Shown piece by piece: positions 1,099 through 24,304 of a DNA stretch of 25,015 nucleotides. The notes beneath the pieces are model-generated. The model was not told the DNA's origin, ran no database searches, and worked only from the letters and a program-made list of their open reading frames with translations. Origin of the DNA: Saccoglossus kowalevskii (Eukaryota > Hemichordata > Enteropneusta > Harrimaniidae). The DNA is taken from positions 20,839 through 45,853 of the forward strand of contig NW_003120944.1 in the NCBI RefSeq assembly GCF_000003605.2. Direction: 5' to 3'. Within the stretch, counting starts at the first letter, position 1; each line of letters opens with the position of its first letter. The translations under genes were made by a program, and so were the position numbers.

Positions 1099-1233
1099 AA
1101 ACATAAGAACGCACTGTTTAAAATGATTGATGAGGCCAGCTGGTGTGTCAAGACATCACAAGATAAAGCCAATGCATTGAATATCATGAAGATTTTATTA
1201 GAGAAAAACATTGATATGATGTCACCAAATAAG
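1099..1233 (+). CDS. ROCO gene, first exon in window (N-terminal helical segment)
   Basis: 135 nt, phase 0 at both ends, after acceptor TATTGCAG and before donor GTTTGT. It encodes 45 residues beginning KHKNALFKMIDEASW and ending DMMSPNK. The stretch ALNIMKILLEKNID resembles a helical repeat such as a decayed ankyrin unit, but one copy is not enough to call it. It must be preceded by at least one upstream exon, because its first codon is not a start and follows a splice acceptor. Confidence 0.72.
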
Positions 1234-4200
1234 GTTTGTAATTTACATTTGGTGATATATATGATTGATTTATAAATAACATAAAATTGTTCTTAAATGG
1301 GTTAACACAGTAATTGTAACTTTACACAACTTGTTTCACATTTTCACATCAGACTTGTTACAGAAGCTTCATTGAAGAAATTGAAGTATTGGTATTCATA
1401 CTTTGCATGTGCAGGTGTCATGGCGGTCCCTCCCATGATGCACCTTGGTCGTTTGAGTTGTATCATGACATGGGCAATGTGGTACCTGAGTGTGAGTGGT
1501 CACTACGGCAACCCTGGTACTGTGGCAAGGACACTGTGGCACCCGAGCACGGTTGTGCATGCTGCAGTGACAGCCTCCTTGTGTTAGTCCCCGTCGGACC
1601 TAGTCCAAAACGAAGACTTATTTTGTTTTTTACGAGTATTCTGTTCATTTTACAGAGATGATTGTACAGATTTGGGTTAAATTTTGTACAAAGGCAAGAT
1701 ATAATGGGTTAAATATGTTTTCAGTTGTTTTTCATTTTCATCGAAATTTAGCCGAATGGTGGCCATTATCGTCAAAAACAAATAAAATGGTTGGTCATCA
1801 ACCATTTCTTAGACATGCCTTGACTGATTCTATTCAAACTTGGCATTGACATCAGTCATAGTGGGTTACTGATGCACGTCATTGTTTTTCCGTGATTCGA
1901 TTCAAAATGGCAGACTGGTGGCCATTTTGTTTTTTACGAGTGTTCTGCTCATTTTACAGAGATGATTGTACAGATTTGGGTTAATCTGGGTTAGTTTATA
2001 TAGTTACAATTTTGTTTTTAATTATCAGGATGAGACTGCAATCGAGTATGTGAGGTCTAAAATTGGTACAGGAAGTGATCTTCAGAACAAATTTTATGAA
2101 GAAGCTGAGATATTGTTGACAAAAGTGAAAAAGGTATTACTCTGGTTGCAGACAAAACATAGTATCGAACAATCACAATGTTATTCTGAAGTTAAATTTA
2201 AATAAAATATATTTTAGGAACGTGACTATAAAATACTACAGAAGGAGCAAGGAATCCCGATTGAAACAACAAAATTACTGTTTTGTGGAGATGGAGGTTC
2301 AGGGAAAACAACTCTGAAGAAGTCTTTACTCAAAGTGAGTATTGTTATAATAGTATATTTTGTTTTACAATGGTCATCTATCAGTAGTACTTGACATATA
2401 GTTCACCAATATTTCATCGAAATTGTAAAAATGTATGGTAGATATATTTCATGGATATTTATCATATATTTCAGACATCCAAATCTAAAGCTGGTCCTGC
2501 TCCAGGCAAAGATAATTATGTTCTGACCCCAGGCATAGACATATCTAAAGAAAAAGTGCCAGGTGTTGGTAAAATGGTTATGTTAGATATGGCAGGACAA
2601 GAGAGTTATTTTTCCAGTCACGCCATGTTTCTATATGCCGGTTTGGCTACTATAATTGTGATGTACCAGGTGTGTGACTTTATAAACGGGAAGATAATCA
2701 GACCGTTGGATATTATGGAGAGAGAAAAGACTCGGGTAAGAGATAATTTCAATATGTTATCAGCTGTGTCATCAAGTTCAAGTCTGCTTGGTAACGCTAA
2801 CAATAATGACAAGTATATGATGATTATCTGACTAGACTTGTTTATGGGAAATTTTGATCCGATTCTAGCAATATTGTATATAGCACTATACCTACAGGAA
2901 ACCAAAAATATACTGGTCACATCTTGATATGCAGTAATAACATTCTGTTTAGAATTTGTTCACTTTCTTGATAGATTTATTTACAAAATGATTTTGATCA
3001 GAATCTCTGGCATTACCAAATGTCTTATCTGACTCTTGCTCCATAAAAGTGCAAATTTAAAAACCAACAGTCTGAATTAAATACATAGCTGATAGAATAT
3101 CAGTTGAATTATCTTGAAAAAAGTGTCAAGGGTTGCTTATAATTTAACTGTCCATGACCATATATCAAATTAAATATCAAAATCAAGGTCTAGGTTTGGT
3201 TGAATATTTATAGCATCGAAATTCATACTGAATTCAATGACAACACGAGTAAAAATGAATAACCATATCTGAAAATAAAACGAAAATATTAATATGAATT
3301 TAAAAGATAATAAGTAAACAAAATACAATCTAGAATATTCAGTTTAGTATCTATTGCTGAACAGAATTAGAATATTAGTTTTGACAACATAGTTTGGAGA
3401 GTTATGGTGATTGAATTTTACTCTGTGTCTGCATTTGTGCTGTTACAAAAGTTTTCCATAGGACTCCTATGGGAAAAATGTCTATAGAATTCCTATAATA
3501 TTCATTCAAAAACATTTTCCTATTGGACTTCTGTTCGTATAGAATTTTGCGTTGAAATACTATAGGAATCTTTCAAGAATTTGTACTGTAGGAATCCTAT
3601 AGGATTTTGCATCAAAATATTACAGGAATCTTACAGGAATTTATTCTATAGGAATCCTATAGGATGTTGGGTCAAAATATTACCGGTTTATTTTTTCCTT
3701 TAGCCTTTTTGGGGGGAGAAGGAATCCATCAATCATTTAAATACCATTATAAACTAGTGATACAATACAAAAGTACTTTATTGCTCAAAAAATGTACCAG
3801 ACATAATTGAAATGAGAAAAATATAAAAAACAACTCATAACTATTACCATGAATATATGAGTATTGCACATTATTACTTGAAATACAATGAAAGAAGTTG
3901 ACAATTGGAAAAAATTAATCCCCTACTACCAAATTGCTTCTATAGTCTTCAAAATATATGATTTGTTTATAAAAATTATTCAGGTAATATTATAAACTCT
4001 ACCAGTAATAAAAAACTTTTCAGTCAATCAAAAAATGTACACTGAAATAAAACAAAAGTTTCCTGCCTTGGTATACATGTACAGCATCAACCAATTGAAT
4101 ATAAACTTTCTGAAGATTTGATACAGAATTAAGGAACACAAATTACGGTACCAGTCCAAAGGATAGAAAATCATGGTTCTAACAAAAAATGTATCATTTA

Positions 4201-7200
4201 ATTTTTAAAATACATTTTTGAAGTTTTAATAATTCACTTAAAACTATAGACTTTCTCATATAGGTAGGAGCACAATTTAATGTCATAGATTTATATAGAC
4301 TTTTAGAAAGTTGATTGAAAAGAAAGTTAACATTTTATTGTTTTCTGATATCTCAAAAATTCAAATTTAAATTAATAAATCTGATTAGAAACCACAGATG
4401 TGCAATCTATTTGTCTGAGTATTATAAATATTAATGCTGTCGATCACACTGTTTTTATGTTGAGCATGTCAAATAGCAGGCCATTATTAGTTGCTGAACA
4501 TCTTATTGCGCTAGTCTCAAATTTTGAATTATTTTAAATATGCCTCCAATAGCAGCACATAGGATTTTTTGCAAAATGCATGTCCACTAATGCATGCAAC
4601 GCCACGCCTAAATCGCATAAATTCCAATAATAAGTTCCAAATAATCATGATTTCCTATTTGTTTTGATACTCAGACTAGTTCACTTGAAAATATTAGCTT
4701 ATGATGTCACTCATATCAACCTGCTTTACAAAGAGTGATATCATGTAATAACCTCATCATTAAAAATGTGTATTTGGAACCATTAGCGGTTTAGATTGAC
4801 AACTTAGTTTATCATCAGTAATTGAATTGATATATGTGATACATTTTAGATTACTAAATGGTTTCAAATGTTAAAAGTCAGAAACCCTGGAGTTAAGCTG
4901 ACGGTAATCTTAGTAGGAAGCAGAGCTGATTGGGCTAAAAAATTTAATTATTATTCTGAAGGTAAGCTTACCATTATTTTGTTATAATATGAATATTATA
5001 ATAAATACTAATAATATTTATATTAATAGTCCCAGAAATTTAGTTCAGCATTCATCAAGTGTGTTTATGTATTCTAAACACGATTAACATACATTGTATC
5101 ACTTTTTGTTGGTGACACAGTTGAGGTATGTACATTGTATGTGTGTTGAAATGGGCATAGTGCGAGTAGTTAGTGCGAGTAGCACTGATCCGAAAATATA
5201 CTAGATCTAGGGGTAAAAGAGTGTACATAATTGAAAGCATACATCATTTTTTTGCAATTCACTTTGTTATTTGTTGTAATGGATTTTGGAAACATTAGGA
5301 AATCGCCATGTTTTCAAAAACGCGATCAACCAGGGAATTATATTTAGATTTATTGACAGTGAAATTGTAGATTGACCTTCGAAATTTTCACAAATTGTGA
5401 ACAGAGACAATTGTGGTTTCAATAATGGCGTATGTAAACTTGTATGTAAGCTGTGGATTTCAGTGTTGATTTTAAAAAAAATCGCTGGCATGCACCATAG
5501 ATCTTTGAAAATGAGATTATGCCATGTTACAATGCTGTAACTGACAAAAACCTTCAAACTAAATATAAAATGTGTATCATCTAAGTCCCGTGTCCCTGTA
5601 AACTTCGGTGGATTTTGTTTGTGCGGAGGCCTGTGTATGAGCATGTTGCTCAGTATAACCGCCATGAACTGGACACAGAAAATGAAATGATGTTTGGTTG
5701 TCACACATTGACCTTTTCGGGCACAAGTCAACCAATGGTAGATGTGGATTCATGCAACCCTACTGTTACATTGTAAAAACATGAGGGGGAGAGATTTGAC
5801 ATAGCATAATATAGTCAAACTTTCTCACAAGGACGTTTCACTTGGTGAATTATTTGAGGAAAAATGTTGTGACAAGATGTAATTCACAGCGTTCCGCAGA
5901 GCCATTGTATTCATAGTTCTAACACAGTCCCTCAATCCTGACAACCCAGAACGTGGCATGCAGTCTGCAGACAGCGGTACGTTTCACTGGCAAACTGTTT
6001 GTAGAACTACTAACAGAGCTAATACATAACCTGTTACGCATCATATATATTTGCCATCCTTGTATCATTGAACTAAAGTGCCACAGCGATGACCAGTAAT
6101 ATATGGCCTGTTCGATACGGTAAACAATAAGCAAACTTTTCATTCCCCAGTCACAACGAAATTGTAACATTACTGACTGGCGACATAAATGCTACTACAG
6201 ATGCGTAGCAATAGTAAAGATAATATATTTGTTTTGTGAAATTTTCCTTCCATAGTAAAACACCGTTAGAAAGCCACACAACAAAAGATCAAGTGGAGTT
6301 CATCGCCTGCTACGTGAATTCACTTTTCGATAAGATGAGATGATGATGTAACTAATTCAATACATGGTCAATTATTTATTTCAGCTTTCAAAATGGCTAA
6401 AACATTGAAAGAAGGATTGGAGAAGATATTTAGTCAATATATTCATATCTTAGATGAACTATTGATTCTCAATGTACACGATTATGCTAGTTCTGGTATG
6501 AAAACCTTGCGGCGAATTCTGAAAACACGAAGAGAATACGTGATTCAGGTAAATATGTATTTTTGCAAGTTTTTGCCGTGTGTATTTGTATATGTATGTA
6601 TGTGTGTGTGTGTGTGTGTGTGTGTTTTGATGACCGATCTACCAAGTCATGACCCACACTTTTTTATAATTTATATTAATAGTTAATTGAATTTAAGTCA
6701 AGTTGAGCTACTTTAGGGTTAGTAAAGCGGGAAAGCAAGGTACAATTTATATTAATATTAATCCTAGTAGCTTTGCAGTGTTATAAATTCCCACAAATAA
6801 GGTGGTAGACGCCAGGGCTACCAACTCTTAAAAGTTAGTGGCCCTGATGAAAAGTAGGTGGACCAACTTGCCAGTGCTGTTAAAATCAGCAAAAGCAGTG
6901 TGCAATTAATATATGCATTTAAATAAATGCAACACTGTGAATAATGATGTGTTTTTATGACACCAATACATGTGACAGAACACATATATAGTAATACCAT
7001 GGAACTACAAGGGTCGTGTGTAATTCACACTAATTAAAAATCTATGTTACCAGGTATGTTTATGGAAAGAAATACAAGTCACATATTTTGTTTTCATATT
7101 TTTTACTTTCAATTTTTTTTTTTTTTTTTACATCTAGAAAGTAAAATCTCTAGAATGTGTATTTGTATCGCTATGGCTTATGTTCAAATACATTACATAA

Positions 7201-10200
7201 AATCTCTGGAAAAAGTGAAAAAATCTGATGAGTGCCTGCTGAGTAATAAATTAAATTAAATCAATGTCAATTTTTCATGCTAGTTTTATATGGACCTTCA
7301 AATGTTTGACAGTCTGAAATAAAGATGATAATATGAACCCCACACCCTCCCTGTGGCTTTCGTTGCGTATGGAAGTTATTTTCACGAGTGATGTGGTGTA
7401 TCCTGCGTCCATACTTTCACGAGCGAGTGAAGCGGTACTCCACTGACGGGATGACTTTTGTCGACAGCGGTCGTCGCTGAGCTGAACGCTACAACTTTGT
7501 GCATGATGCTGCTTGCTGGTCGTGGATTGACTAAGTCTTGGTTACCGGTTAAAATGTTGCTCATTTGGCGTTGGTAATCTTTATTTGGAACTGAGTAACG
7601 CCGCAATGTCGCCTGCAGAAACCTCCTGGTATCTCGATGTTGATGATTGCGGCTCCATAGTAATCGCTGATTTTACGGCGGGTGGATCTTCTGAGAGCCC
7701 TTCAAGGTTTATAAAACTCAGTTTCTAGGTGGTCAACATACATTAAGGTTTCCCAATCATAGTATTCCATGAGATGTACACCTAACGTACATGCCAAAAA
7801 TGTTGCTGAACGATTTGAACCGGACACAAATAGCAGACGAAAATGTGTTCACAAAATAAAAATAATTCGGTAACCAATGGAAATACCATGTTCATTTGCA
7901 TATCGACCGTGAAAATACCGAAAACATTATTGCATGGATGATATGCAAATTAGTTGTTGTCGAAATAAGTGACTGCCAAAAAGTACCATTACTGTTGTTC
8001 AAATTTTATTTCACTCGGCAAGTATAATCATGTACCCCAAGAGAAAAATATCGTACTTCTTATATTGTTTATTTCTGCTATGTTTCGAAAAACGGTACTC
8101 CTGAAGGGACTACTTTGTTTGCTCTCAGGCTCATTTGCATATGAGGTGTGGAAATAACGATTTTGATTTCAGGGATGAATCAAAGTAAACTGCAGTACAT
8201 ATGTTATAATAATAATAACTACAATGAAACTTAGTACAATGCACAGACCTGATAAGTCTTGGGTTAATAACCATGAATATTTATTGCCTAATTTGCATAA
8301 TCAGTAAATATTTGGCCTTTTTTCTGATTTTTTTTGTGTACAAATCATTACATTTCAATGAAACTTGGTACATAGATACACTGACCTTTTAGTTCTACAT
8401 TAAGACTGTGCATAATAATTACCTGATTTGCATAACATATTTAGTGGGTTTTTCAGCTTTTCCATCAATATCTAAAATACTTAATATCTTATTTCAATGA
8501 ATCTTAGTACTCTAAGACATTTCAACGATCTAATGTAATCCAATGTTTCGGGTTTATATACATCGATAATAATTACCTAATTTGAATAATACTTAGCCAA
8601 ATTTATGCATTTTCATCATGTACTATGCAACAGATTTCAATGAAAATTGGTACATAGATGCCCTGGGATATTGCGTAGACCTGATTATTTTGGTTGAAAT
8701 CCTGTGCATATTAATGACCCAATCTGCATATCTCAACAGATTTTAATGAAACATGGTAGGTACATATATGCTCTGGGATAACGCACAAACGTCATTAGTT
8801 TTTGGTTGAGATCAATGTGATATGACTAATATTTCATGTCACTATATATGGTCATGTGACCTCAATAATATACATAATTGTAATATCTTGTGTACTGTTG
8901 CAGATAGGGAAATGCAGCTGGTGCTATAATTTTGTTTATGACAAGATATGACCAAAATATCAAGTCATCATATATAATTAAATATTATAATTGCTAAACC
9001 ATAGCTACTTCGAACCACCCTGATCATTGCTTGTAATAGGAGTAGGAGTTCTTTCTAAGCTTCTAAGCTTTTTTAATCTTAATATGAGCGCTATAATGCG
9101 AATATATTTTTAATGTAAAATATATGTGAATGTATTCCTCCCACTAATGAATGTATGCAGAACGATGTTGGTTCGTTCATTAAGTTATTTTGGTGGGGTT
9201 GTGTGTAGCAAGGAGCTCCATGTGTGTAGTTATCTGACTTGTCAGTGAATGACTTGTTTGTTCATGGTATTATAATGCTTGACATTGCAACTGAAATGGG
9301 CATAATCCTGTTGGGTTTATACTATATTTATGACATATCACAGGAATAACCTTGTATGTAGAGGGCAAACACGTGTGCAAGTATTGCTCAATGGCTACCG
9401 GTACGTCATATATGGTTTCCTAGTCTATTAGCCAAGTATCATTTAATGTTTTTGTAGATATCAGAGCCAATGCCAGCGATATGTGCAAAGATACTTCGTA
9501 GAAAGAAAAAATGGATTAAGAAACGTAAATTTTTTCCTGTTATGTATTGGAACGATTATGTGACCAATGTTAGACTAGACATCGATTCATCAGTTGAAGA
9601 AGTTTTCCTGAGTAAGGCATCTGAGTATCTTTATGACAACGGAGATGTAAGTGGACACTAATAAGTATAAAATGTTACTATGATGCATATTTTCAAAGTC
9701 TACAGTTTTACCTTCAATAATGTCATCATCAAATATTCAAAATTCATACAGTGCCTTGATTTGCCAATAGTTATATCTCATAACAGAAACACACATATAC
9801 CTGTGTGAATAATGCTATACTGTGGTAATTTCATTGGAAAAAAATTCTTTACATGTTCTGTAAATAATATATATATTGAAATAAACTGATGACATAAATA
9901 ATATGTATTGTACACATGTAAAAATTACTGATGCATTGAGGCAACATATTAATTATCCAATTTATTTTGACGTCATTGTGTTATTTTTGTATGTTTCAGA
10001 TTCTGTATATCAGAATGTCTGATATGGAAGCTGTGATAATACTTGTTCCTCAGTGGTTTTGTGATAGAATAATCGGACCACTTATGGCTACTGACCTGTT
10101 TGTCCAGTACGCGAAGATATTAAAGAAGCAGACGATATACACATTTGAAGACATCCAAGAAGTGCTTGTGAAGGAAGCAGATATGGGCTTGCTGATACCC

Positions 10201-11262
10201 CTGCTGACCCACTTTGATATAATTGTTCCATTGAGTGCAAATGATTATGGTGGTGGCCATCAAGGGAAGTATATTATTCCAAATTTACTTTCAACAGATA
10301 TGCCAAAAGATAAGTGGAAAGCAGAACCCCAAATGCGTCTTTATTTTGGTAAAGAATTCCTGTGCAAGGCAGAAGCTGATATGTTTTCTCCCAATTTCTT
10401 TCCTCGACTGCAAGCACGTCTTCACGATCTTTACACAAAATTGCAGCGGCCACCAAGTGGTATATGGAAAAACGGTATCAAGCTCTGTGAGGATGTTGAA
10501 GCCCTGGTCTTTCTTTCAGAAGACAAACGTGATGTTGGTGTCGCCGTTCGATGTGAAGGAAGAAACCAATTTGAAGAGTGTCATTCGTTAAAGCAAAAGG
10601 TAGCTGTTGTTATGCGTCAGGTGTTACATGAAACAAGCCCTGGTGCAGATGTGGAGTTTCATGTCACTAGCAGATTTTCCTTGCGAAACCACCATGACCT
10701 CAATGAAGTCAGATCATATCCGATAGAGCAAATACTTCAAGCAGAAAAAATGAAAGTCACAGTCTATGATGAAGTGATTGGAATAGCAGAGGAGGTTACA
10801 GATTTACTGGTTCCAGGATTTGACCTGACAGTTCTAAAAGAAAATGGTATCAAGTCTGATGTAAAGTGGATGGAGCACAAAACAAGACAAGAAGTGGCGA
10901 TTCTATTGGAAAAAGAAAGAGATGACACTAAAGACCACCGACTGCTGTCTCGGTATATGGGGATATCTCGTGCTGAACATGAAGCAATAGCTGCACGTGC
11001 TTCCAATGCAGGTCTTTATGTTACTGATTTACTCCTTGACAAGTGGTCTGAAAACTGGGTAACAACTGTTAGAAGAGATGGAGCATCCGCAAAGTCAACA
11101 GATGGGAAGGTGTATCATGAAAGCAGCATCGAAAATCTGTTGGAAATCAACAAGTTGTACCTAGAAAACTACTTTGTGACACGTGCGATTGAAGATATGC
11201 TTAAATACCCAGATGGAAAACCTCAACAAGCTAAAGTGGAAGACGAAGAAGAGGATGAATGA
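1099..11262 (+). CDS. Roc-COR (ROCO) GTPase with C-terminal death-like domain; 3' part, nine exons, 5' end outside window
   Basis: Seen: nine open blocks flanked by AG acceptors and GT donors join in frame to 794 codons ending at TGA 11260-11262. Residues 117-124 are the P-loop GDGGSGKT, 150-154 TPGID is a plausible switch I, 170-174 DMAGQ is the Roc switch II, and 242-247 GSRADW takes the G4 place. Residues 312 to about 600 fit a COR domain (a '...ILVPQWF' strand and the usual long helices). Residues about 680-775 look like a six-helix death fold, then an acidic tail. Known: Roc-COR proteins are dimeric GTP switches; DAPK1 and several invertebrate ROCO proteins place a death domain after COR. 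Inference: a cytosolic signalling GTPase that recruits death-domain partners. No kinase follows COR, unlike LRRK2. The N-terminal repeats (LRR, ankyrin or other) lie upstream and are not seen. The family is confident; the exact orthologue is not named. Confidence 0.9.
1353..1391 (+). CDS. ROCO gene, predicted 39-nt microexon
   Basis: Acceptor CACATCAG precedes the 13 codons TCYRSFIEEIEVL; the donor is TTG|GTATTC. This end was chosen because it alone among nearby GT sites keeps phase 0 into the exon at 2029: 1414 leaves phase 2 and 1491 (GTGAGT) leaves phase 1. The joined peptide reads FIEEIEVL-DETAIEYV, a smooth amphipathic helix. The donor is weak (GTATTC), although the exon ending at 2133 uses a similar GTATTA. 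The frame stays open to 1661, so intron retention would not stop translation at once. Confidence 0.55.
1585..1620. repeat. Nested palindrome at the edge of a duplicated block
   Basis: The stretch TAGTCCCCGTCGGACC with its continuation TAGTCCAAAACGAAGACT folds on itself: an outer AGTCCCCGT/ACGAAGACT arm pair with two mismatches, and an inner GGACCTAGTCC near-palindrome. It abuts the first copy of the 61-bp direct repeat and ends a GC-rich tract (1411-1580), so it may be the terminus of an inserted element. Confidence 0.4.
1620..1680 (+). repeat. 61-bp direct repeat, copy 1
   Basis: ATTTTGTTTTTTACGAGT begins a 61-bp block ending GATTTGGGTTAA. It recurs at 1924-1984 with two substitutions (A/G and T/C). 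The copies are 304 bp apart within one intron, and GGTGGCCATT follows copy 1 (at about 1759) and directly precedes copy 2. This looks like a recent unequal duplication of a longer unit. Confidence 0.85.
1924..1984 (+). repeat. 61-bp direct repeat, copy 2
   Basis: Second copy of the block at 1620-1680, with 59 of 61 bases identical. It ends about 45 bp before the splice acceptor at 2028, so the duplication lies close to a functional splice site without disturbing the exon. Confidence 0.85.
2029..2133 (+). CDS. ROCO gene exon before the Roc P-loop
   Basis: 105 nt, phase 0/0, acceptor ATTATCAG, donor AAG|GTATTA. It encodes 35 residues from DETAIEYVRSKIG to LLTKVKK, a charged helical linker leading into the GTPase domain. 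It has no catalytic motif; its support is the splice signals, the matching phases and a coding-like composition. Confidence 0.78.
2218..2334 (+). CDS. ROCO gene exon with Roc P-loop (Walker A)
   Basis: 117 nt, phase 0/0, acceptor TATTTTAG, strong donor AAA|GTGAGT. It encodes 39 residues with the beta strand TTKLLFCGDGGSGKTTLKKS. GxxxxGKT is the G1 loop that binds the nucleotide phosphates; Lys123 and Thr124 of the joined product are the expected phosphate and magnesium ligands. The G-D-G-x-S/A-GKT pattern is typical of Roc domains (LRRK, MFHAS1, DAPK1) rather than of classic Ras. Confidence 0.92.
2475..2735 (+). CDS. ROCO gene exon with Roc switch I and switch II (DMAGQ)
   Basis: 261 nt, phase 0/0, acceptor ATATTTCAG, donor CGG|GTAAGA. 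It encodes 87 residues: TPGIDI near switch I, strand KMVMLDMAGQESY with the DxxGQ switch II, and the following strand ATIIVMY. Roc domains normally have D-x-A-G-Q-E then an aromatic and a His; this exon has QESYFSSHAMF, a good match. An internal CAG|GTGTGT at about 2670 is a possible alternative donor, but it would drop the segment ending MEREKTR that leads into the next exon's ITKWFQMLK helix. Confidence 0.92.
2736..4849 (+). other. Intron (2.1 kb) of ROCO gene
   Basis: AT-rich sequence with no supported exon. It contains the AGGAATCCTATAG repeat block at 3450-3690, listed separately; the rest shows nothing I can name. Confidence 0.6.
3452..3690. repeat. Palindrome-rich tandem repeat, 60-bp period, AGGAATCCTATAGGA core
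   Basis: Units begin at 3539, 3599 and 3659, exactly 60 bp apart, each with ATAG(A/G)A(T)TTTTG, a variable AAATATTAC segment and a GGAATC-containing tail. The joins carry TATAGGAATCCTATAGGA, a near-palindrome. Upstream at 3452-3477, TTTTCCATAGGACTCCTATG plus GGAAAA forms a hairpin with one bulge. This resembles a foldback or MITE-like element or a short satellite seed within an intron. Confidence 0.65.
4850..4961 (+). CDS. ROCO gene exon with Roc G4-like motif
   Basis: 112 nt, phase 0 in and phase 1 out, acceptor CATTTTAG, donor G|GTAAGC. It encodes ITKWFQMLK then VKLTVILVGSRADWAKKF. The strand VILVG followed by xRxD is the G4 guanine-specificity position. Most Roc proteins have T-H-x-D or N-K-x-D here, so S-R-A-D is a variant. 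This exon is too short to stand out as an open frame and was found by splice phase and motif. Confidence 0.88.
4962..6384 (+). other. Intron (1.4 kb) of ROCO gene
   Basis: No exon was needed here: phase 1 at 4961 joins 6385 directly. A 14-bp-spaced repeat AGTGCGAGTAG occurs twice at 5159-5183. A plus-strand open stretch at about 5884-6028 (FRRAIVFIVLTQSLNPDNPE) and a 154-codon minus-strand frame (5267-5731) lack splice or family support. Confidence 0.5.
6385..6548 (+). CDS. ROCO gene exon, end of Roc domain
   Basis: 164 nt, entered in phase 1 and left in phase 0, acceptor TTATTTCAG, donor CAG|GTAAAT. Residues read AFKMAKTLKEGLEKIF, a strand ILDELLILNVHDYA, then the helix SGMKTLRRILKTRREYVI. 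This is the usual end of a Roc domain, where a strand with the family's 'sS/N' position is followed by 'gi..L...I' leading to COR. The phase-1 join with 4961 restores an Ala codon. A (TG)n tract lies about 50 bp into the next intron. Confidence 0.88.
6586..6627 (+). repeat. (TG)n microsatellite
   Basis: A TGTATGTATG start is followed by a run of TG dinucleotides in the intron just after the donor at 6548. It is probably length-polymorphic. Confidence 0.9.
7330..7700. other. GC/CpG-richer patch inside the intron, nature unknown
   Basis: This block (for example GTCGACAGCGGTCGTCGCTGA) stands out from the AT-rich intron. It has a 74-codon minus-strand frame at 7382-7606 with no recognisable domain. 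It may be a transposon remnant or an internal regulatory island; nothing decides between them. Confidence 0.35.
8200..8850 (+). repeat. Degenerate tandem repeat, ~135-143 bp period, five copies
   Basis: The marker TTTCAATGAAACTTGGTACA and variants recur with AATGAA at 8223, 8357, 8496, 8639 and 8745 (steps 134, 139, 143, 106). Each is followed by a 'cTGGGATA/acctgata' segment and then, in most copies, TAATTACCTAATTTGCATAA. The first copies carry a perfect octamer ATTTGCAT (8291, 8426). The copies are decayed, so the array is old. Confidence 0.75.
9458..9646 (+). CDS. ROCO gene exon, Roc-COR linker and start of COR
   Basis: 189 nt, phase 0/0, acceptor TTTTTGTAG, strong donor GAT|GTAAGT. It encodes 63 residues, ISEPMPAICAKILRRKKKWI and onward, with the basic run RRKKKWIKKRK, then a helix ending ASEYLYDNGD. 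In COR domains this helix is followed by 'G.i.yf....' and an 'IL-P-W' strand, which is what the next exon supplies (ILYIRMSD..VIILVPQWF). Confidence 0.87.
10000..11262 (+). CDS. ROCO gene terminal exon: COR domain, death-like domain, acidic tail, stop
   Basis: 1263 nt, the longest coding exon, acceptor ATGTTTCAG, ending in TGA. Its 420 residues start ILYIRMSDMEAVIILVPQWF, matching the conserved COR strand and tryptophan. The middle carries the COR C-terminal half (KWKAEPQMRLYFGKEFL, FSPNFFPRLQARLHDLY). The end has DHRLLSRYMGISRAEHEAI, LLLDKWSENW and SSIENLLEINKLYLENYFV. These follow the death-domain pattern of helix, 'lG.s..e...i', 'll..W' and 'si..Ll..l'. The last residues, VEDEEEDE, are acidic. 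There is no kinase. The open frame extends 11 codons upstream of the acceptor, but those codons are intron. Confidence 0.93.
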   Translation: MLYIRMSDMEAVIILVPQWFCDRIIGPLMATDLFVQYAKILKKQTIYTFEDIQEVLVKEADMGLLIPLLTHFDIIVPLSANDYGGGHQGKYIIPNLLSTDMPKDKWKAEPQMRLYFGKEFLCKAEADMFSPNFFPRLQARLHDLYTKLQRPPSGIWKNGIKLCEDVEALVFLSEDKRDVGVAVRCEGRNQFEECHSLKQKVAVVMRQVLHETSPGADVEFHVTSRFSLRNHHDLNEVRSYPIEQILQAEKMKVTVYDEVIGIAEEVTDLLVPGFDLTVLKENGIKSDVKWMEHKTRQEVAILLEKERDDTKDHRLLSRYMGISRAEHEAIAARASNAGLYVTDLLLDKWSENWVTTVRRDGASAKSTDGKVYHESSIENLLEINKLYLENYFVTRAIEDMLKYPDGKPQQAKVEDEEEDE

Positions 11263-13590: not shown

Positions 13591-13607
13591 TTATCTCCAC
13601 AGGGCAT

Positions 13608-16029
13608 TAACTCCAGTCAACTAAGCAGTTATTACACCCACACATTAACTCCACATAGAGTAGTAACTCCAGTCAACTAAGCAGCTATTACACACCCATT
13701 AACTCCACATAGAGTAGTAACTCCAGTCAACTAAGCAGCTATTACACACCCATTAACTCTACATAGAGTAGTAACTCCAGTCAACTAAGCAGCTATTACA
13801 CACACATTAACTCCACATAGAGTAGTAACTCCAGTCAACTAAGCAGCTATTACACACACATTAACTCCACATAGAGTAGTAACTCCAGTAGACTAAGCAC
13901 CTATTACACACACATTAACTCCACATAGAGTAGTAACTCCAGTCAACTAAGCAGCTATTACACACACATTAACTCCACATAGAGTAGTAACTCCAGTCAA
14001 CTAAGCAGCTATTACACACCCATTAACTCCACATAGAGTAGTAACTCCAGTCAACTAAGCAGCTATTACACACCATTAACTCTACATAGAGTAGTAACTC
14101 CAGTCAACTAAGCAGCTATTAAACACACATTATTCCTACACAGGACAGTAACTTCTGTAAACTAAGCAGCTATTACACACACATTAACTCCATACATGGC
14201 AGTAACCCCAGTCAGCTTAGCAGATATTACACACACATTAACCCCTCACAAGACAGTAACTCCTGTCAACTAAGCAGCTATTACACACACATTAACGCCA
14301 CACAGGGTAGTAACTCCAGTCAACTAAGCAGCTATTACACACACATTAACCCCGCACAGGACAGTAACTCCAGTCAACTAAGCAGCTATTACACACACAT
14401 TAATCCCACACAAGGCAGCAGCTCCACTGAACCTTGCAGTTATTACACACACATTAACTCCACACAGGGCAGTATCTCCAGTCAACTAAGCACCTATAAC
14501 TCACACACAGGATCGTAACTCCAGTCAACTAAGCAGCTATTACACACACAATAACTCCATACAGGGCAGTATCTCCAGTCAACTAAGCACCTATAATTCA
14601 CACATTAACCCCACACAGGGCAGTAACTCCAATCAACTAAGCACCTATTACTCACACATTAACCACACACAGGATAGTAACTCCAGTCAACTAAGCAGCT
14701 ATTACACACACATTAATCCCGCACAGGACAGTAACTCCAGTCAACTAAGCACCTATTACTCACACATTAACCACACACAGGATAGTAACTCCAGTTAACT
14801 AAGCAGCTAATACACACACAATAACTCCACACAGGGCAGTATCTCCAGTCAACTAAGCACCTATTACTCACACATTAACCCCACACAGGGCAGTAACTCC
14901 AATCAACTAAGCACCTATTACTCACACATTAACCACACACAGGATAGTAACTCCAGTTAACTAAGCAGCTAATACACAATAACTCCACACAGGGCAGTAT
15001 CTCCAGTCAACTAAGCACCTATAACTCACACATTAACCCCACACAGGACAGTATCTCCAGTCAACTAAGCACCTATTACTCACACATTAACCCCACACAG
15101 GGCAGTAACTCCAATCAACTAAGCACCTATTACTCACACATTAACCACACACAGGATAGTAACTCCAGTTAACTAAGCAGCTAATACACACACAATAACT
15201 CCACACCGGGCAGTATCTCCAGTCAACTAAGCACCTATAACTCACACATTAACCCCACACAGGACAGTATCTCCAGTCAACTAAGCACCTATAACTCACA
15301 CATTAACCCCACACAGGGCAGTATCTCCAGTCAACTAAGCACCTATTACTCACACATTAACCCCACACAGGGCAGTAACTCCAATCAACTAAGCACCTAT
15401 TACTCACACATTAACCACACACAGGATAGTAACTCCAGTTAACTAAGCAGCTAATACACACACAATAACTCCACACCGGGCAGTATCTCCAGTCAACTAA
15501 GCACCTATTACCCACACAGGGCAGTAACTCCATTCAACTAAGCAGCTATTACACACACATTAATTCCATACAGGGCAGCAACCCCAGTCAGCTTAGCAGC
15601 TATCACACACATTAACTCCACACATGACAATAATTCGAAGCAACTATGCAGCTATTGCACACACATTAACTCCATACATGGCAGTAATCCCAGGTAGCCT
15701 CGCAGCTATTACATACACATTAATCCTACACAGGGCAATAACTCTAGTAAACTGAGCAGCTATTACACACACGTTAACCCCGCACAAAATCAGCAGCTCC
15801 ACTGACTCTGGCAGTTATTACTCACACATTAACTTCACACAGGGCAGTAACTCCAGTCAACTAAGCGGTTATTACACATACATTACCTCTACACAGGACA
15901 GTAACTCCGATCAACTAAGCAGTTATTAAACATAACATTTACCCCACACAGGGCAGTAACTCCAGTCAGGCTGGCAGTTATTACACACACATTAATCCCA
16001 CACATTGCAGTAACCCAACTCAACTAAGC
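13608..16029 (+). repeat. 54-bp minisatellite/satellite array, ~45 copies
   Basis: Unit TAACTCCAGTCAACTAAGCA + GCTATTACACACACATTAAC + a TCCACATAGAGTAG or CCCACACAGGGCAG tail, 54 bp. The left block (13608 to about 14110) is nearly homogeneous with the CATAGAGTAG tail. The middle (about 14460-15510) alternates variant units, and the right flank (about 15530-16029) is the most diverged. The first unit is 56 bp and some are shortened. 54 is a multiple of three, but every strand and frame sampled meets stops (TAA in TTAACT, TAG in AGTAGT), so it does not look coding. Confidence 0.97.
14624..15430 (+). repeat. Higher-order repeat inside the 54-bp array
   Basis: The diagnostic unit TAACTCCAATCAACTAAGCA starts at 14624, 14894, 15106 and 15376, that is steps of 270, 212 and 270 bp (5, about 4 and 5 units). 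It is followed by a unit with TAACTCCAGTTAACTAAGCA and GCTAATACAC at 14894, 15106 and 15376, while the 14624 copy is followed by the ordinary AGTCAACT unit. Co-amplified multi-unit blocks show that unequal exchange has worked on groups of units. Confidence 0.8.
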
Positions 16030-16149
16030 GTGGAGTCAAATTCGCTAAAATGTGTAGCTATTTAAACATGTTTTACAGTACCATTTTAAACAAAAAATGA
16101 CAAGAATGTTTACTAAAATTAGAAAATTTAACTAAATGTGCAAACCATG

Positions 16150-18030
16150 TACAGAAAAAATAAAGCTGTATAGAAAGTTGTAGAAATTGGTTAGAAAGAG
16201 TGAAACTTGATTTGAATGTTAGTAAAGTTGTGCAGAATAAAGTAATCTTGTTTGGAAAGTAGTGTTAGTACTCTAGAAAGTGGTACATTTGGTTGGAAAG
16301 TTGTGAAAATGTGGTTTGAAACAAAAGTTGTATAGGAAATATAAGAAGTTGTCTTGAATGTAAAAAGGTTAGTTGGAAAGTAGTCAAAGTTGATTTGAAA
16401 GTCGTACAAATAGTAACAGTTGTCAGTTGGTAAGTAATACAAATTTTTAGAAAGTAAACAGACAATGTCTGAAAAGTAGTAAAAGTTTGTTGGAATATAG
16501 TAAAAGTTGTCAGGAATCTTTTTTAATTTATTGTTACCATCCCATACCGAAAGATCGGATTTACAGTTTCGAATACAGGTTTCGCCACTCCGAGAAGTTG
16601 CTGGGTACATGAAATTCACTCGGGTGACCCAGTTGCTGTATTGTTCTAACATGTGCAACGACTTAAACCATTTCAGGTGCAAGCGATATTGCAGGAGTAA
16701 CCATACCAAGAATAGTTTATGTTATACCTAATAAACCATATTTTCACATAGTTCATGTTGTTTCGATTTTTCTATGCATATATGCGCATTGAACTATATT
16801 GGTGCCATTAGTTCCTGTGTTACACACATTGTCAAACTGGTTAGAAATTTAATATTTCACCTGACCCTGTAACAGTAGTAAAGTTTGTCATGATAGTACG
16901 ATATTAAGTTAGTTTGATTAGTAGTCGGAAAAGTTGACTCAATATTAGTAAAATTAATATAAGATAAGTATATAGTTTGAAAATAGTAAATGTAATGTGG
17001 AAAGTAGTACAAATAGCTGGAACTTAATAAAAGTTGTTTAATATGCTATAAAAGTTGTCCTGCAAGAATATATAAAGTAGTGAATATTATGTTGAAATAA
17101 GTAAAAAATCCGGAATGAGGTAAATTGGTTAAAAGTAGTAAAAAAATGTCTTGAAAAACCTAATGATGGCTTCAAAAGTTGTATGGAGACTACAAGGTTT
17201 TTTTGGAAAGTAGTAAAGGTTATGTGGAAATTAGTAAAGTTTTTTTTCGAAAGAAAGATGGTTCAAAGTAGTTAGCTGTTTTCTATGAAGCTGCAAGATT
17301 GGCTGGAAAATGTTCGTGAAACTACCAAATCGTCTGCAAAGTAGTACATTTGGCTAAAAACCAAAAACGTTGTCTGGAAGGTAATGGCAGTTGGTTTGAA
17401 GTTGGTAAAAGTCTGTAGAAGAGTAATAAAAGCTGTCTGAAAGCAGAAAAGTTGTTTAAAACTAAATATTCTCTGGAAAATTCTTAACGTTGGCTGCAAA
17501 ATAATAAAATGTGGTTAGGAAGATTGTAAGATGGATATTGAGTAGAAAATGTGTTCAAAGCCTCCTAAACAGTTGATTGAAAAAGAGTGAAAAACGACTC
17601 GAAAGTAGTAAACTTGGTTAGAAAGTAGTGAAAGTTTGTAGGAAAACTATAAACGTTGTATGCAAAGTAGTCAAGTTGCAATTGACTGCTAAGTACTAAA
17701 AGTTCTCTGAAAGTTAGGGAAAATTGTATTGAAAGAGGTTAAAATCAGTACAATTTATGTGGACATCAATAGAATGCTGGAATGAAGCAAAAAATAGTAT
17801 GGAATAAAAGATGTCAGCAGTTAACCTTTTTAGAAATTAGTAAAGATTGTATGGACAGTAGTCAACCCCTTTTTTGGAAATTAGTAAAGAATTTTTGGGA
17901 AGTAGTTAACCTTTTTTTGGAAATTGGTAAAAACTGTATGAACAGTAGTAAACCTTTTTTGGAAATTAGTAAGAATGTTTGGTAATTAGTAAAGATTATT
18001 TAGAAAGTAGTAAAAGTTACTCGTGAAGTA
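16150..18030 (+). repeat. Degenerate purine-rich array, core GGAAAGTAGTAAAAGTTGT, ~27-30 bp spacing
   Basis: The words GAAAGTAGT, GTAAAAGTTGT and TTTGGAAAG recur every 25-30 bp from 16150 to about 16515 and from about 16860 to 18030, strongly diverged. At 17824-17990 a more recent sub-array with ~43-bp units (CTTTTTTGGAAATTAGTAAA...AGTAGTTAAC) is clear in three copies. A 172-codon minus-strand frame here reads as repeated FYYxPTN-like words and is a by-product of the repeat. Confidence 0.8.
16517..16855. other. Non-repeat insertion interrupting the purine-rich array
   Basis: From about 16517 to 16855 the GGAAAGTAGT words stop and a more GC-balanced sequence appears (for example CTCGGGTGACCCAGTTGCTG), after which the array resumes. 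This suggests a segment of about 340 bp inserted into the array. No terminal repeats or target-site duplication were clear by eye. Confidence 0.5.
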
Positions 18031-18591
18031 GTAAATGACAGCAGAAATGTGTGAAAGATTGTTTTAAAATAATATTTCATAAAAAATAAATAGTACTCGC
18101 TAGAATTTCTCAGTAATTCGGGACAACCCAATCTAATGTTTGTCGCAATAGTGAGTAACAGAACGTCTGCTGTAGCCTGTATGGAAATTCTAAAGACTGT
18201 TATTGACACAAACATGTGCAAATTTACGATAGAACATGAATTTTAGCCTGCAAGGGCAAGTGAAAAAAATTGACCAAAGTCGCTAACCACCCTTTCCTAG
18301 TATAGCCAAACTTTGATTGAGATAACTGTCTTCAAACCCACAAATGAAACCCACGCCACGAAAACCGATCTTATTTCTCGTACATTGTTACAGTAAATGT
18401 TTGTTAATTAATGTGTCCCGTGAGCGTGGCTGTCGGTCAATTTTAAAAGCCAGCTGTGATTAGCTGTGCGAGATTTGAACGGGATTTCTATTGACATTGT
18501 GTCAGATCTTTGTGGGCTTTCCAAAACTTTGAAAAAAATGTTCAGAGTAACACACCAGTACAATTCTACTGTATGTTATAAATATAGCACA

Positions 18592-18599
18592 TGACGTCA
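18592..18599. promoter_or_regulatory. CRE palindrome TGACGTCA
   Basis: Perfect 8-bp CREB/ATF site. Others lie at 9968 (intron), 18977, 22974 and 24117. Whether any is functional is not shown. Confidence 0.4.
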
Positions 18600-18976
18600 T
18601 TATAGATTATAAAACATTAATACATGCTGACAGTATGACACCTATTGATGAATGAAGGTCAAATTTATGAGTTTTTCACTGTTGGAAGAAGTCATGCAGA
18701 TGGTATATTACAGAAACGGAATCTAGCTCTAAATGTAGGTGATCCTACGAAGTAAACAACACACACAACAACAGATTCAATATAAACGCTCACATGTCCT
18801 GTACATAGAATTAATTTTTACATGTAATTTTGTTACTGTTTTTTGTTTTTTTGTCAGGCAGATTTTTCATATAGGAACTTCGTAAACCTACGAAACCCTC
18901 AGATTTAGTGGTCAAAGGTTCGGATTAACCCGCTTCAAATGCTGAAAAGTACACACACGGGGTCAGTTCGTGACTA

Positions 18977-18984
18977 TGACGTCA
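18977..18984. promoter_or_regulatory. CRE palindrome TGACGTCA
   Basis: Perfect CREB/ATF site, 385 bp from the one at 18592 and about 850 bp upstream of the TATA box at 19825. Confidence 0.4.
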
Positions 18985-19020
18985 TATCAGTAGTTTATAC
19001 GTGCTATATTTGATAAAACT

Positions 19021-19071
19021 AAAAATAATTTGATAATAAAAATAATTTGATAATAAAAATAATTTGATAAT
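19021..19071 (+). repeat. 17-bp tandem repeat, three perfect copies
   Basis: AAAAATAATTTGATAAT occurs three times head to tail with no mismatch, so it is a young expansion. Confidence 0.95.
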
Positions 19072-19824
19072 AGCATGAGTCAAGTTTAATTAAATTGGTT
19101 CATGTCTAATTCATCACAAAATATGAATGTGTATTGTTTATCTTTATGTATTCAAATTTGCATATTGACGAATGTTATGATTGTTATATTGGTAGAAAAT
19201 ATTTCATTTCTGTGCTTTTATTTTATTTATTTTCTTAAAGGTGCAAACTTCACTGATGTGTATCAGTAATATAAATAACCCTGATTGCAAGCAACATGGT
19301 AATTATGCATGAATATATATCTCTGTGTTTATACAATAATCTTGGTATTAAGCTGAAACACGTTTTTCAAAATAGACATGCTTAAAAATAAACAAATAAG
19401 CATTAAAAGTAGTTCCGGTGATATGCGCTGGGAGGTGGACTAACACGTTGTCGAGAATATCACATTTTGGGCATTAATACAAGTTGGAATATCTTACTAA
19501 TATTTGAATATTGCGTTCTTTGATTTACATTCACGCATCAAAACATTTTGTAATTAAATTTAATTATTAGTGTTTGAAAGAAAGACGTTTTAGTATCTTT
19601 GCGAATTGATAAGAGAGAAGTCAGTCAGACTTACGATTAGCAACATTGTTTATTTAGATCGGCGTCGACGACACCGTTAACGTCATATTTATTCTGTACT
19701 CTCCGAAATGTAGTTGTTTGATGAAACATGATAGAATGGTCACGTAAAACAAAGCATATGATCTATTTTATAATTGTTTCAATGTAAGGATACAATGTTA
19801 TATTAGGGTGTAAACCATCACCAA

Positions 19825-19830
19825 TATAAA
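19825..19830 (+). promoter_or_regulatory. Putative TATA box for the signal-peptide exon
   Basis: TATAAA lies 66 bp upstream of the ATG at 19891. A start site about 30 bp downstream (near 19855, in TTGGACTATATCAAC) would leave a 5' leader of about 35 nt. Spacing is canonical; no expression evidence exists. Confidence 0.45.
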
Positions 19831-19890
19831 GTCACGTACAGTTCGTTGGACTATATCAACGGGCGATGTACTCTTTCACTCGTTCATAAA

Positions 19891-19942
19891 ATGTCACAGG
19901 CAATATTCGGTTGTTTACTGGTGCTTTTATTTACCACTGGTG
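19891..19942 (+). CDS. Putative first exon encoding a signal peptide (partial gene)
   Basis: ATG at 19891 (AAAATGT context, A at -3) opens MSQAIFGCLLVLLFTTGG, a short polar start, a hydrophobic core and a small-residue end, as in a secretory signal peptide. The reading frame then meets a strong donor G|GTGAGT at 19942/19943, giving phase 1, the phase at which signal-peptide exons of extracellular animal proteins usually end. Unspliced, the frame closes with TAG at 20020. A TATA box sits 66 bp upstream. Later exons were not identified, so the product is an unknown secreted or membrane protein. Confidence 0.5.
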
Positions 19943-20022
19943 GTGAGTACATAACAAGTTGTATGTTCTCTCCCATCTTGATGTTCTATACTACATATTT
20001 AGTTGCATTTCTTGTTCGATAG

Positions 20023-21938
20023 CTGAGTAAGACCAGTTGAGACGGTTCGAGGTGGTCGGGAATTTTGTGTAATCGATTGCTATGTACAGTATGCGTGTAG
20101 CAAAAGATCTCACTAACGACTCTATATGATTAACCACATTTCTATGGATCATCGTATGTATTGTTAAATAGTAGTCCAACATTAAATATTACGTTTTTTT
20201 TTTAAGTTTTATAAACTACGTCATTTCTACATCACGTGGTAAATCGTTCACGTCTTGCCTCCCATGATGTCACCGTATAGCAAATGTCGGCCCGGTCTCA
20301 AAAGCGAGTTTCACATGCTTTGGCAATATATTCACAGATTTAATGCAATTTCAAAACCAATTGAAAAAAAAGGCCAGATAGTGTTACATGGTACAGCTGA
20401 TTGGGCGATAAATGTAATCGGGGTGTCGCATTTGAGGACTTTGCGCCGATTTATTCAATTTTGAAATAGTACCTCTACCACCGGTTATCTTCAATTTCGT
20501 GGTCAATCTCCCTACTATAATTTTTTCAGCAGTTATTTTACCTGAAAACATCCTACAACGGGTAAAACAACCAGAAATGCTTAATTTAATCCGACTACGT
20601 TGTGCAAGGTGACGTTACTGAAACGAAATTGTGAACTCTCGGCGCCGTGGCAACAAAGACATTACAAATAAATATTTATATTCTAACTGAAACGTGAGGT
20701 TCCCATTGGCAGATCTAGATTGAATAGTATTGGAACGTTTTTAAGGGACTCCGTTTGGCTGATTGTAATCAACTGCCATTGAAATTTGTAAATAAAGATG
20801 AAGGAAATGCTTTTGTTACGATGAGAGTACTTATTCAGCCACCTGTTGCTATGTACATATAGATGGGAAAGACTGATTTCACATTAATGGATTTCTGAAC
20901 ATCCCCGTTTGTCTTGTTTTCTAATAAATATTTTAAAACTATTTTGGGCTTGAACTGATTTGATTTTTCGCATCTGACAGCCATATACACAGAGCTTCTA
21001 GTCAATCTATAGAGTTAGCAATTTATTACATAAACTAATGCCTTGACAACTTTGAAAGAAATTAACTTCTCTGACGCAAATAAATGAAATTTTAATTTTT
21101 CGGTAAAATACTATATATATGTATTAAACAATTGAACCTAGTATTCATATTTAAAAAAAAACGCATCCACATCATGCAGCCCAGGGAACCCGATTTTTTT
21201 CAAACGTTATCCCGATCTCTAAACTACGAAAACTAGGAATCCTGAAAGGTTTGTCGTCTGTAAATATTGATACACGCAATTTCGTATCCTTGAGTGACAA
21301 GCCAATCTAGGGGATACTTTATTTGTGTCGTGTCTTGTCATCCTTCAATAACCCTTGATCATTGAGTGTCAATTATACGAACTATGACCAGTACTCCGTC
21401 TACTACATAGAAAGATGAGCGTGATAAGGCATATTTTCTGTCCTGGCTAGACAATTGCGTACTTGCCAGTTAGTGTTAAAGAATGTCGCTCTCCTTGAAA
21501 ACCGTTAATTAGGTCGAATTTTTATTTTGTAGGATTTCGCCGTGTAACCAGTTTTATTTATCAGATATTTTCATAAAGCAATAGAGATTTCTACAACATA
21601 ATTTCTACCAGTTTTTTGTCAAGTGATTTTAAATATGTTTTTTTTTTCGTCCATAAATGTATATTCAACACTTCCAAAGATACTGGACCAGAGAGATAAT
21701 TATTAAACATTTACGTGATCAAAATGTGTATATATAGTCCCCGGGATATAGTCATGCATCATTCTGTTATAGTTTCCTATGTGTCGGCAACTACCTGATT
21801 ATGCAGGCACGCGGGAATTGCCAATCCTGTTCGAAACTTTGTCGGAATTTCATCATTTTGTTGTTGACTGCACTTCAGCAGACCGGTTTGGTTTTACCAA
21901 GTAACCTCTGAATGCCTACAAAAAAAATGAAAAAAAGG
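20023..21938. other. Region without supported exons; probable intron or intergenic
   Basis: If the 19891 exon is real, this would be its intron. A 69-codon plus frame (20255-20464) has no recognised domain. One copy of a dispersed repeat is at 20705-20840. A TATATATAG box at about 21729 has no obvious gene after it. Confidence 0.35.
20705..20840 (+). repeat. Dispersed repeat copy A
   Basis: Shares, in order and orientation, AATAGTATTGGAACGTTTT, AACTGCCATT, TAAAGATGAAGGAAATGCTT (preceded by AAA), TTGTT and AGAGTAC with the block at 24080-24218, allowing indels. Probably two old copies of one non-autonomous element. Confidence 0.6.
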
Positions 21939-22085
21939 TTAATATTTGCAGCAATTATCACGCAGTTTCAATCTCTTGCCGCTACTGTGGCTCATCCTCG
22001 GGCGCCCGATCGCCTCCCTGTGTATAATAAAACAAGTACCGTTGAGGGCAGTACAACACACTAATATGAACACTCCACTCGCCAT
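21939..22085 (-). CDS. Candidate short secreted peptide precursor (hypothetical)
   Basis: From the internal Met (ATG at 22085) the frame encodes 48 residues. It begins MASGVFILVCCTALNG, a plausible signal peptide, continues with a basic segment, then SSGKR, and ends LKLRDNCCKY before TAA. Gly-Lys-Arg is the classic amidation and dibasic cleavage signal of neuropeptide precursors. An in-frame upstream Met exists at 22136. The sequence is more GC- and CpG-rich than its surroundings. Against it: it is short, unrecognised, and a TTATTATACACAG inside looks like a splice acceptor (exon start at about 22013), so it may be an exon of something else or chance. Confidence 0.25.
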   Translation of the reverse strand: MASGVFILVCCTALNGTCFIIHREAIGRPRMSHSSGKRLKLRDNCCKY

Positions 22086-22489
22086 TAATCTGATGTACCC
22101 ACGCATTTTTTTAAGCGACGCAGTACGGACAGTCAAAACTCATACATGTGATTTCCATTACAGGAGCGCATTGGATTGTTGGAAAATCAATGTTTATCAA
22201 CACAATGTCGTAAATGCGCAGCGTGATGGACGACCACCATCCTTTATGATGTTTGTACGGACTTCTTTAAAACAGGGCTATACATGTATTATAAAGAATC
22301 ACATTCAATATTTAGTATGCTGGTCAATATTTACTTGATATATTGTGATTTTACTACCAGAAAACTGTACTCTGTTAATATTGAGGATTTATTGAGGATT
22401 TAAGTCTACGTCATGTTGTCCAATTTACATTCACATTAATTATTGACCATTTGCACCCATGAAGATTTATAATCTGTTTTATCATATAC

Positions 22490-22576
22490 CTCGTATTTCC
22501 CAGCCTCGTAGCGCTATGGGAAGTCCTCCCACCAGGGCAATAATTTCCTGTATCACGTCTGGCCCAGTGCGCCCAG
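22490..22576 (-). CDS. Candidate minus-strand exon, GPDVIQEIIALVGGLPIALR
   Basis: Flanked on the minus strand by a possible acceptor (GAATTATGAAAG, poor pyrimidine tract) and a donor GAG|GTATAT, this 87-bp GC-rich block has two open frames. One reads GRTGPDVIQEIIALVGGLPI then ALRGWEIR, which has a protein-like hydrophobic pattern. It lies about 200 bp downstream of the MASLTV start on the same strand and may be its second exon. The family is unknown. Confidence 0.25.
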
Positions 22577-22611
22577 CTTTCATAATTCAAAACAAAATGC
22601 GTCATTCTAAA

Positions 22612-22791
22612 TTAAGTCATGTGTTTAAGGTCACGCCGTCGTAAAATTGTAATTACATTTATAAAACCATTTATGGACTGGATACGGTTTTTGTGGCCCG
22701 ATGTCGTGCGGCGGGGCGCCTGAGCGTGCGAAGGCGTATAAAGATGTCTCAGTTTGTACTTGTCGATCTGCGCAACAGTCAAAGACGCCAT
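22612..22791 (-). CDS. Candidate first exon on the minus strand, MASLTVAQIDKYK... (hypothetical)
   Basis: In a GC-rich island, the minus strand has AAAGGATGGCG at 22791, a good Kozak start that also matches a YY1-type start motif. It opens MASLTVAQIDKYKLRHLYTP and continues with a basic, Ser/Arg-rich segment. The frame remains open to 22612, but a real exon would probably stop earlier at a donor I cannot fix. An NRF1-like ACGCATGCGT lies about 30 bp upstream of the start. I do not recognise a family. The overlapping minus frame 22631-22861 is an alternative reading. Confidence 0.33.
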   Translation of the reverse strand: MASLTVAQIDKYKLRHLYTPSHAQAPRRTTSGHKNRIQSINGFINVITILRRRDLKHMT

Positions 22792-22815
22792 CCTTTTTTT
22801 CATATGAGACCCATA

Positions 22816-22832
22816 CCTCATACGCATGCGTG
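22816..22832. promoter_or_regulatory. NRF1-like motif in a CpG-rich patch
   Basis: CATACGCATGCGTGGCG contains the near-palindrome ACGCATGCGT, close to the NRF1 consensus. It sits directly upstream of the minus-strand MASLTV start among several CpGs, as in TATA-less housekeeping promoters. Confidence 0.4.
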
Positions 22833-22861
22833 GCGCGACGACCACTGCCCTTTAAATCCAA

Positions 22862-23580
22862 TATATTGTCGCACCATACTTGTTTTATTTATGTATTTAT
22901 TTATTCTATTAAACTATGACCACCCAATAAAAAGCCTGGTACTAAGACTTTACATAAGCGCCATAATGCTTAGTGACGTCACTTGTCAACTGTACTATTG
23001 AACCCACACCCACACTCACCAAACATTCAAATGGTGTTGCAAGCAATGTTATTAGCATTGTAAATATAGATCACAGTCCATAGAGGGACTGTGTATAGAT
23101 ATATGAATGTACTGAATGTGTCGCTTTGTATAGCGTTTGAAATCTGATCTTGTGTCCACATTTAACCTGTTATTGACGCAGTGATAGTAGTTTCAGACCG
23201 TTTTACATTACGAAATCCTCAGCAATACAAGGCATTAGTGAAGCGAAGAATATTTCATCAATAAAACTATTATAAAATAAATTCTTTGCTAAATTACTTT
23301 TATTTGTTATCTTTGAATGTCATTTGTTATCTCTTTTTTATTGGGTGAGAATACCGCCAAAATTATCTCGATCAGTTATTATTTCATTATTTCGTACTTA
23401 TGTGTTATGTCAATACTAATGTAATTACATTATTTTTATATTTTTATCACATTATTTTGCAATGATTTACTTATTTCAACATTATTAGATTATTGTGTCA
23501 TTATTTACATTGTTGGTCTTTATTTCAACATTATTATTACATTATTTCACTGTGAAAGGAACGTTGTGGCTTCGACGATG
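22862..23580. other. AT-rich stretch with ATTATTTCA-type simple sequence
   Basis: Between about 23380 and 23550, ACATTATT, ATTATTTCA and ATTATTTACA words recur irregularly. No gene was recognised. A TGACGTCA lies at 22974-22981. Confidence 0.4.
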
Positions 23581-23610
23581 GCCTACAGACGGCTAACTTT
23601 GTAACGTTCC
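23558..23610. repeat. Short inverted repeat GGAACGTT...AACGTTCC
   Basis: GGAACGTT near 23559 and AACGTTCC near 23603 are exact reverse complements about 36 bp apart, just upstream of the CCAAT cluster. They may be paired transcription-factor sites or a small foldback. Confidence 0.5.
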
Positions 23611-23685
23611 ATCTAGATCAGACGGCGCCCTCTCGTGCTACAATTAAGCGTATCAGTGAGACAACACAATGAATTGCATGTGTGA

Positions 23686-23773
23686 CCAATCACAGCACCG
23701 ACCAATCACAGCACCGACCAATCAAATCCGTGTCACATATAGCTTTAACAGTTTATTTTGTCACTTTATAAAA
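23686..23773 (+). promoter_or_regulatory. Putative promoter: three CCAAT boxes in 16-bp register plus TATA box
   Basis: CCAAT occurs at 23686, 23702 and 23718 inside a 16-bp repeat ACCAATCACAGCACCG, and TATAAAA follows at 23767-23773, 44 bp after the last CCAAT. Spaced CCAAT boxes upstream of a TATA box match NF-Y-driven promoters. The first ATG downstream (23818) opens only 16 codons, so the transcript's coding part, if any, would be spliced in from further downstream, or the transcript is non-coding. Confidence 0.45.
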
Positions 23774-24218: not shown

Positions 24219-24304
24219 ATACAACGGAAGGAACAATATCAAGGCAGGGCTGCAACATGGAAAATTCAAGAACTTTGCGAGACGATATCGCACACGTGAT
24301 CTGA

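Follow-up and report, generated by a model that had tools for sequence, protein, structure and literature searches.

The window, as we call the whole stretch of 25,015 nucleotides analysed here (Saccoglossus kowalevskii contig NW_003120944.1, positions 20,839 to 45,853), carries a gene in which a Roc GTPase domain and a COR domain are followed by a C-terminal domain of predicted death fold, and this observation is confirmed as real. We consider it probable that the gene encodes an ankyrin-Roc-COR-death-domain protein with a GTP-switch mechanism and that the genome holds at least nine related loci, this one included. Its eight exons all have AG acceptors, all except the last have GT donors, and the joined frame is unbroken over 781 residues, not the 794 counted in a first-pass annotation made from the letters alone. 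The exons and the C-terminal features are as follows.

1099..1233, plus strand: exon 1, ankyrin-type repeat piece (KHKNALF...SPNK), AG/GT, phase 0
2029..2133, plus strand: exon 2, last ankyrin-like repeat or cap (DETAIEYVRSKIGTGSD...), AG/GT, phase 0
2218..2334, plus strand: exon 3, start of Roc, with the G1/P-loop GDGGSGKT at 2287-2310
2475..2735, plus strand: exon 4, middle of Roc, with G3 DMAGQ at 2586-2600; donor position the same in C1341
4850..4961, plus strand: exon 5, Roc, with G4 SRAD at 4919-4930; phases agree, homologues in relatives
6385..6548, plus strand: exon 6, end of Roc and Roc-COR link
9458..9646, plus strand: exon 7, part of COR-A; homologous stretch in L012-L016
10000..11262, plus strand: exon 8 (last), end of COR-A, COR-B, death domain, acidic tail and TGA stop
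10852..11205, plus strand: death domain by predicted fold, six helices (model residues 37-154)
11209..11259, plus strand: C-terminal tail with acidic end, not common to five aligned relatives

Exon 5 was identified by inspecting translated reading frames; it contributes a single base and the exon at 6385 opens with two, so that the phases fit. Homologues of exon 1 are present in L013, L014, L015 and contig C1341, and also in contig C2266 via likeness to C3278. Since exon 1 opens at a phase-0 acceptor, further coding sequence is expected upstream, where all 20,838 bases of the contig are N. Pfam scans of 20 kb of this upstream and an ankyrin search in it came out empty, which carries no weight as the letters are all N. 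The end of the window is the end of the contig.

In the joined protein, Roc scores 32.3 bits against a Pfam cut-off of 27, and the G1, G3 and G4 motifs by which the Roc of Roco proteins is recognised can all be read in the translation. COR is placed immediately after Roc, as in Roco proteins; its COR-B part is barely above the Pfam cut-off (27.3 vs 27), and in 10000-10743 by itself both COR-B (25.4) and COR-A (19.4, cut-off 35.3) are sub-threshold. By sequence, the nearest relative of this Roc among the PDB entries searched is LRRK2, and a structural search with a 420-residue model found COR-B closest by fold to LRRK2 and bacterial Roco. Roc and COR, both of which the first-pass annotation had recognised, are supported by profile and fold, and the Roc-COR protein would be expected to bind and hydrolyse GTP and to dimerise.

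The modelling supports a death fold at the C terminus. The model of the domain has six helices in a death-like arrangement, and death-fold entries make up the first 25 of the 31 rows of a structural search (Foldseek), with a large gap before the remainder and with the best matches covering all six helices. The Foldseek E-values are weak and one model in five is confident; the helices are unchanged when a longer construct is modelled. By predicted fold, the protein possesses both the six helices that define a death fold and the C-terminal death domain that is characteristic of the DAPK1 group. The Pfam Death profile PF00531 has no match in the window protein and reaches one of six family members at E = 0.1, and since its cut-off is not attained the domain is filed by fold only, outside the Pfam Death family. 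Moreover, a profile search of the domain against PDB sequences returned chance-level rows only, and no death domain was listed in the structural search with the 420-residue model. Thus the proposed death fold is borne out by the helical model but not by Pfam, and the acidic tail is present in the window protein but not common to the five aligned relatives. In all five of these the reading frame ends at most about 20 residues past the last helix, so there is no sign of coding exons past 11262.

The genome (572 Mb in 4,830 contigs) contains further loci of this kind. The last exon matches six further contigs (C939, C4729, C3278, C955, C2266 and C4306), and a search with exon 4 brings in two more (C1341 and C1308); only the best candidates were scored, so these eight relatives are a lower bound, and the family comprises at least nine related loci including the window gene. 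The exon order is the same in C4729, C955 and C3278, and the last exon is fully open in C4729 and C3278. In the other four of the six relatives showing it, C939, C955, C2266 and C4306 (L012, L015, L016 and L017), the last exon is frame-broken, and these copies are either pseudogenes or assembly errors. The closest relative, C1341, has counterparts of exons 1-5 with 74% identity over 241 codons, and its C-terminal side is N; the borders of exons 1, 2 (start) and 4 are equal in the two genes. Over these five exons dS is 0.45 and dN 0.14, giving a dN/dS of 0.31 without a significance test, and against the other relatives the values are saturated or nearly so. Searching the genome with the COR-B family gave a single place (C4132:129506) and missed the window's own gene, and is therefore unusable for counting Roco genes.

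In most of the relatives the N-terminal side carries ankyrin exons. Exons 1 and 2 of the window, joined, have no Pfam match, and their joined counterparts in all three relatives tested give sub-threshold Ank matches (best E 0.056, 0.0036 and 0.00067). Six of the eight relatives, namely those with readable upstream sequence, have such exons ahead of Roc and on its strand; the count leaves out C939, whose contig starts inside Roc, and C4306, whose upstream is mostly N. In C3278, C2266, C4729 and C955 they are found both by Pfam and by a profile of the C3278 exons. The latter profile finds one ankyrin exon in C1341 (1.8e-6) and gives 0.065 in C1308, and a broader profile finds six and two clear exons, respectively. 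The broader profile was built with one exon each of C1341 and C1308, so those two match by construction; the exons outside it are the other five of C1341 (E 0.0068 to 3.7e-8) and the second of C1308 (0.00015).

No kinase was found by Pfam in the upstream frames scanned, which cover L018 and the readable part of L019 for C3278, L021 only for C2266, L020 and L015 3001-10000 for C955, and L013 for C4729, and no leucine-rich repeats were seen in the scanned upstream frames of these four relatives. In addition, when 2,560 open pieces from the nine loci were searched with a generic kinase consensus, no match fell below E = 2.1; this search had no positive control and is therefore suggestive only. 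The relatives suggest that the kinase has been lost, and the window gene itself may lack it too. The first-pass annotation had envisaged an N terminus different from that of DAPK1; the readable part of it is ankyrin-like, and DAPK1 has ankyrin repeats too, so the real difference would be the loss of the kinase.

It is this point that bears on whether the gene is simply the DAPK1 of this animal, with a CaM kinase in the unreadable upstream and the ankyrin, Roc, COR and death domains after it. The order kinase-ankyrin-Roc-COR-death is that given for DAPK1 in the accessible part of one review (PMC6320773), and in the accessible parts of this and another review (PMC6337361) the death domain marks the DAPK1 group, which has an N-terminal kinase. 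The upstream 20.8 kb are all N and leave room for a kinase, which may therefore lie there. However, with eight related loci present in the genome a single DAPK1 orthologue becomes less likely, no kinase appeared in the relatives' scanned frames by Pfam or, without positive control, by the generic consensus, and the nearest relative of Roc among the PDB entries searched is LRRK2. We regard an ordinary DAPK1 as unlikely. Less likely again is the reading in which the C-terminal helices extend COR in a way peculiar to this family and form a helical bundle that has no death-domain function. Such an extension would be consistent with the missing Pfam Death match in the window, the weak Foldseek E-values and the single confident model in five, but it does not agree with the 25 of 31 top rows of death-fold entries, the wide gap below them, the six helices spanned by the best ones or the identical helices of the longer construct. 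Very improbable, finally, is a pseudogene or a join of pieces of two genes: although four relatives are frame-broken in the last exon and introns of up to 2.9 kb separate the window exons, each of the eight exons is open and their phases agree, C4729, C955 and C3278 show an equal exon order, and the dN/dS against C1341 over exons 1-5 is 0.31. An ankyrin-Roc-COR-death-domain protein of a multi-locus family therefore remains the preferred explanation.

In contig C3278, positions 3582-8718 of L018 hold 23.8 tandem copies of a 216-bp unit, each consisting of one 33-residue ankyrin exon and a 117-bp intron, and all 23 exons examined are open. The most variable codons are 1, 3, 11, 12, 31 and 33, and we take codons 33, 1, 3, 11 and 12 to be the positions that are diversified in designed ankyrin proteins. 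For these five, which were picked after the variability table was seen, the mean pairwise difference is 0.398. The introns give 0.110, and the remaining codons give 0.074 when codon 31, which by itself has 0.37, is set aside. The value of the five codons was reached by none of 100,000 sets drawn at random from the intron triplets and by one of 100,000 drawn at random from the exon codons; the copies in one array are not independent, so these statistics overstate the certainty. Taken over all codons, pN is 0.141 and pS 0.095; in the bootstrap, 16% of the values of pN minus pS are zero or negative, so that the difference is not significant. The variation clusters on codons of the presumed binding face, and the array is a lead worth following.

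Among known systems, DAPK1 (group 3 Roco) shares with the family the ankyrin repeats, the Roc-COR module and the C-terminal death domain in the same order, according to the accessible parts of the reviews (PMC6320773, PMC6337361). It differs in that here there is a multi-locus family in which no N-terminal CaM kinase was found in the scanned relatives, the 5' part of the window gene itself being unread. LRRK2 and bacterial Roco provide the nearest solved Roc by sequence and the nearest COR-B by fold, but in LRRK2 a kinase follows COR where here a death domain does, and no leucine-rich repeats were seen in the relatives' scanned frames. Trichoplax Roco proteins with CARD or death domains are likewise animal Roc-COR proteins with death-fold domains; in the portion of the source available the likeness is one of domain content, the order ankyrin-Roc-COR-death not being established there. 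In the available text on Aplysia, MyD88-like and TIR proteins carry ROCO domains (PMC9334734), and in that on the sea-anemone gene NG3, kinase, death and TIR domains are combined with Roc/COR in the centre (PMC5094078). In these invertebrate cases, discussed there as immune, Roc-COR is thus combined with signalling domains of the death(-like) or TIR type, whereas the window gene has ankyrin-like exons and no TIR domain. In the accessible part of another paper (PMC8195603), bacterial AP-GTPases that bear COR and have many C-terminal effector domains are placed beside DAP kinase. The brown-algal LRR-ROCO genes, as far as the available text describes them (PMC11378527), have one repeat per exon and tandem shuffling ahead of ROC-COR, comparable to the ankyrin exon array of C3278, but their repeats are leucine-rich and their LRR-ROC-COR plan is without a death domain. 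Our literature search for the ankyrin-Roc-COR or Roc-COR-death architecture found DAPK1 work only, a weak absence since most subscription journals were outside its scope.

The rest of the window offers few features. About 2.3 kb downstream of the gene begins a long tandem array (13598-16029) with a 54-bp unit, also readable as 108 or 162 bp, and a strong GC skew. At 19891-19942 a short open stretch, MSQAIFGCLLVLLFTTGG, runs into a GT donor and by its letters looks like the signal-peptide first exon of another gene. A stretch of 179 bases at 773-951 matches the opposite strand of C1341 at 88% identity, some 22 kb upstream of the gene there, and is probably a dispersed repeat. On the two strands of 16001-25015, a single sub-threshold row was all that Pfam gave at E 0.01, and neither a tRNA nor an Rfam family reaching its gathering score was seen in the window.

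For the protein itself, we assume that the ankyrin repeats would bind a partner or ligand, that the Roc G domain would bind GTP and via COR govern dimerisation or the opening of the chain, and that the C-terminal death domain thus freed could nucleate an assembly together with MyD88-, IRAK- or FADD-like death-domain partners. Partner choice, cellular location and any function in immunity or in cell death are likewise inferred, and the adaptor in innate immunity or apoptosis proposed at first would be of this kind. More tentatively, the family may be a kinase-less, GTP-gated counterpart of NOD-like receptors, with a variable ankyrin array for recognition, a Roc-COR switch and a MyD88-like death-domain output, in which one exon per repeat would allow tandem expansion and selection would favour change on the binding face; this we hold to be possible but doubtful. 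Should the kinase really be absent, the family would show in isolation how Roc-COR and a death domain act when no kinase is attached, a question to which neither DAPK1 nor LRRK2 can give a clean answer. Furthermore, if the ankyrin array of C3278 proves to be expressed and selected for change, it would represent an animal repeat-exon recognition system akin to that of the brown-algal ROCO genes and coupled to a death-domain output.
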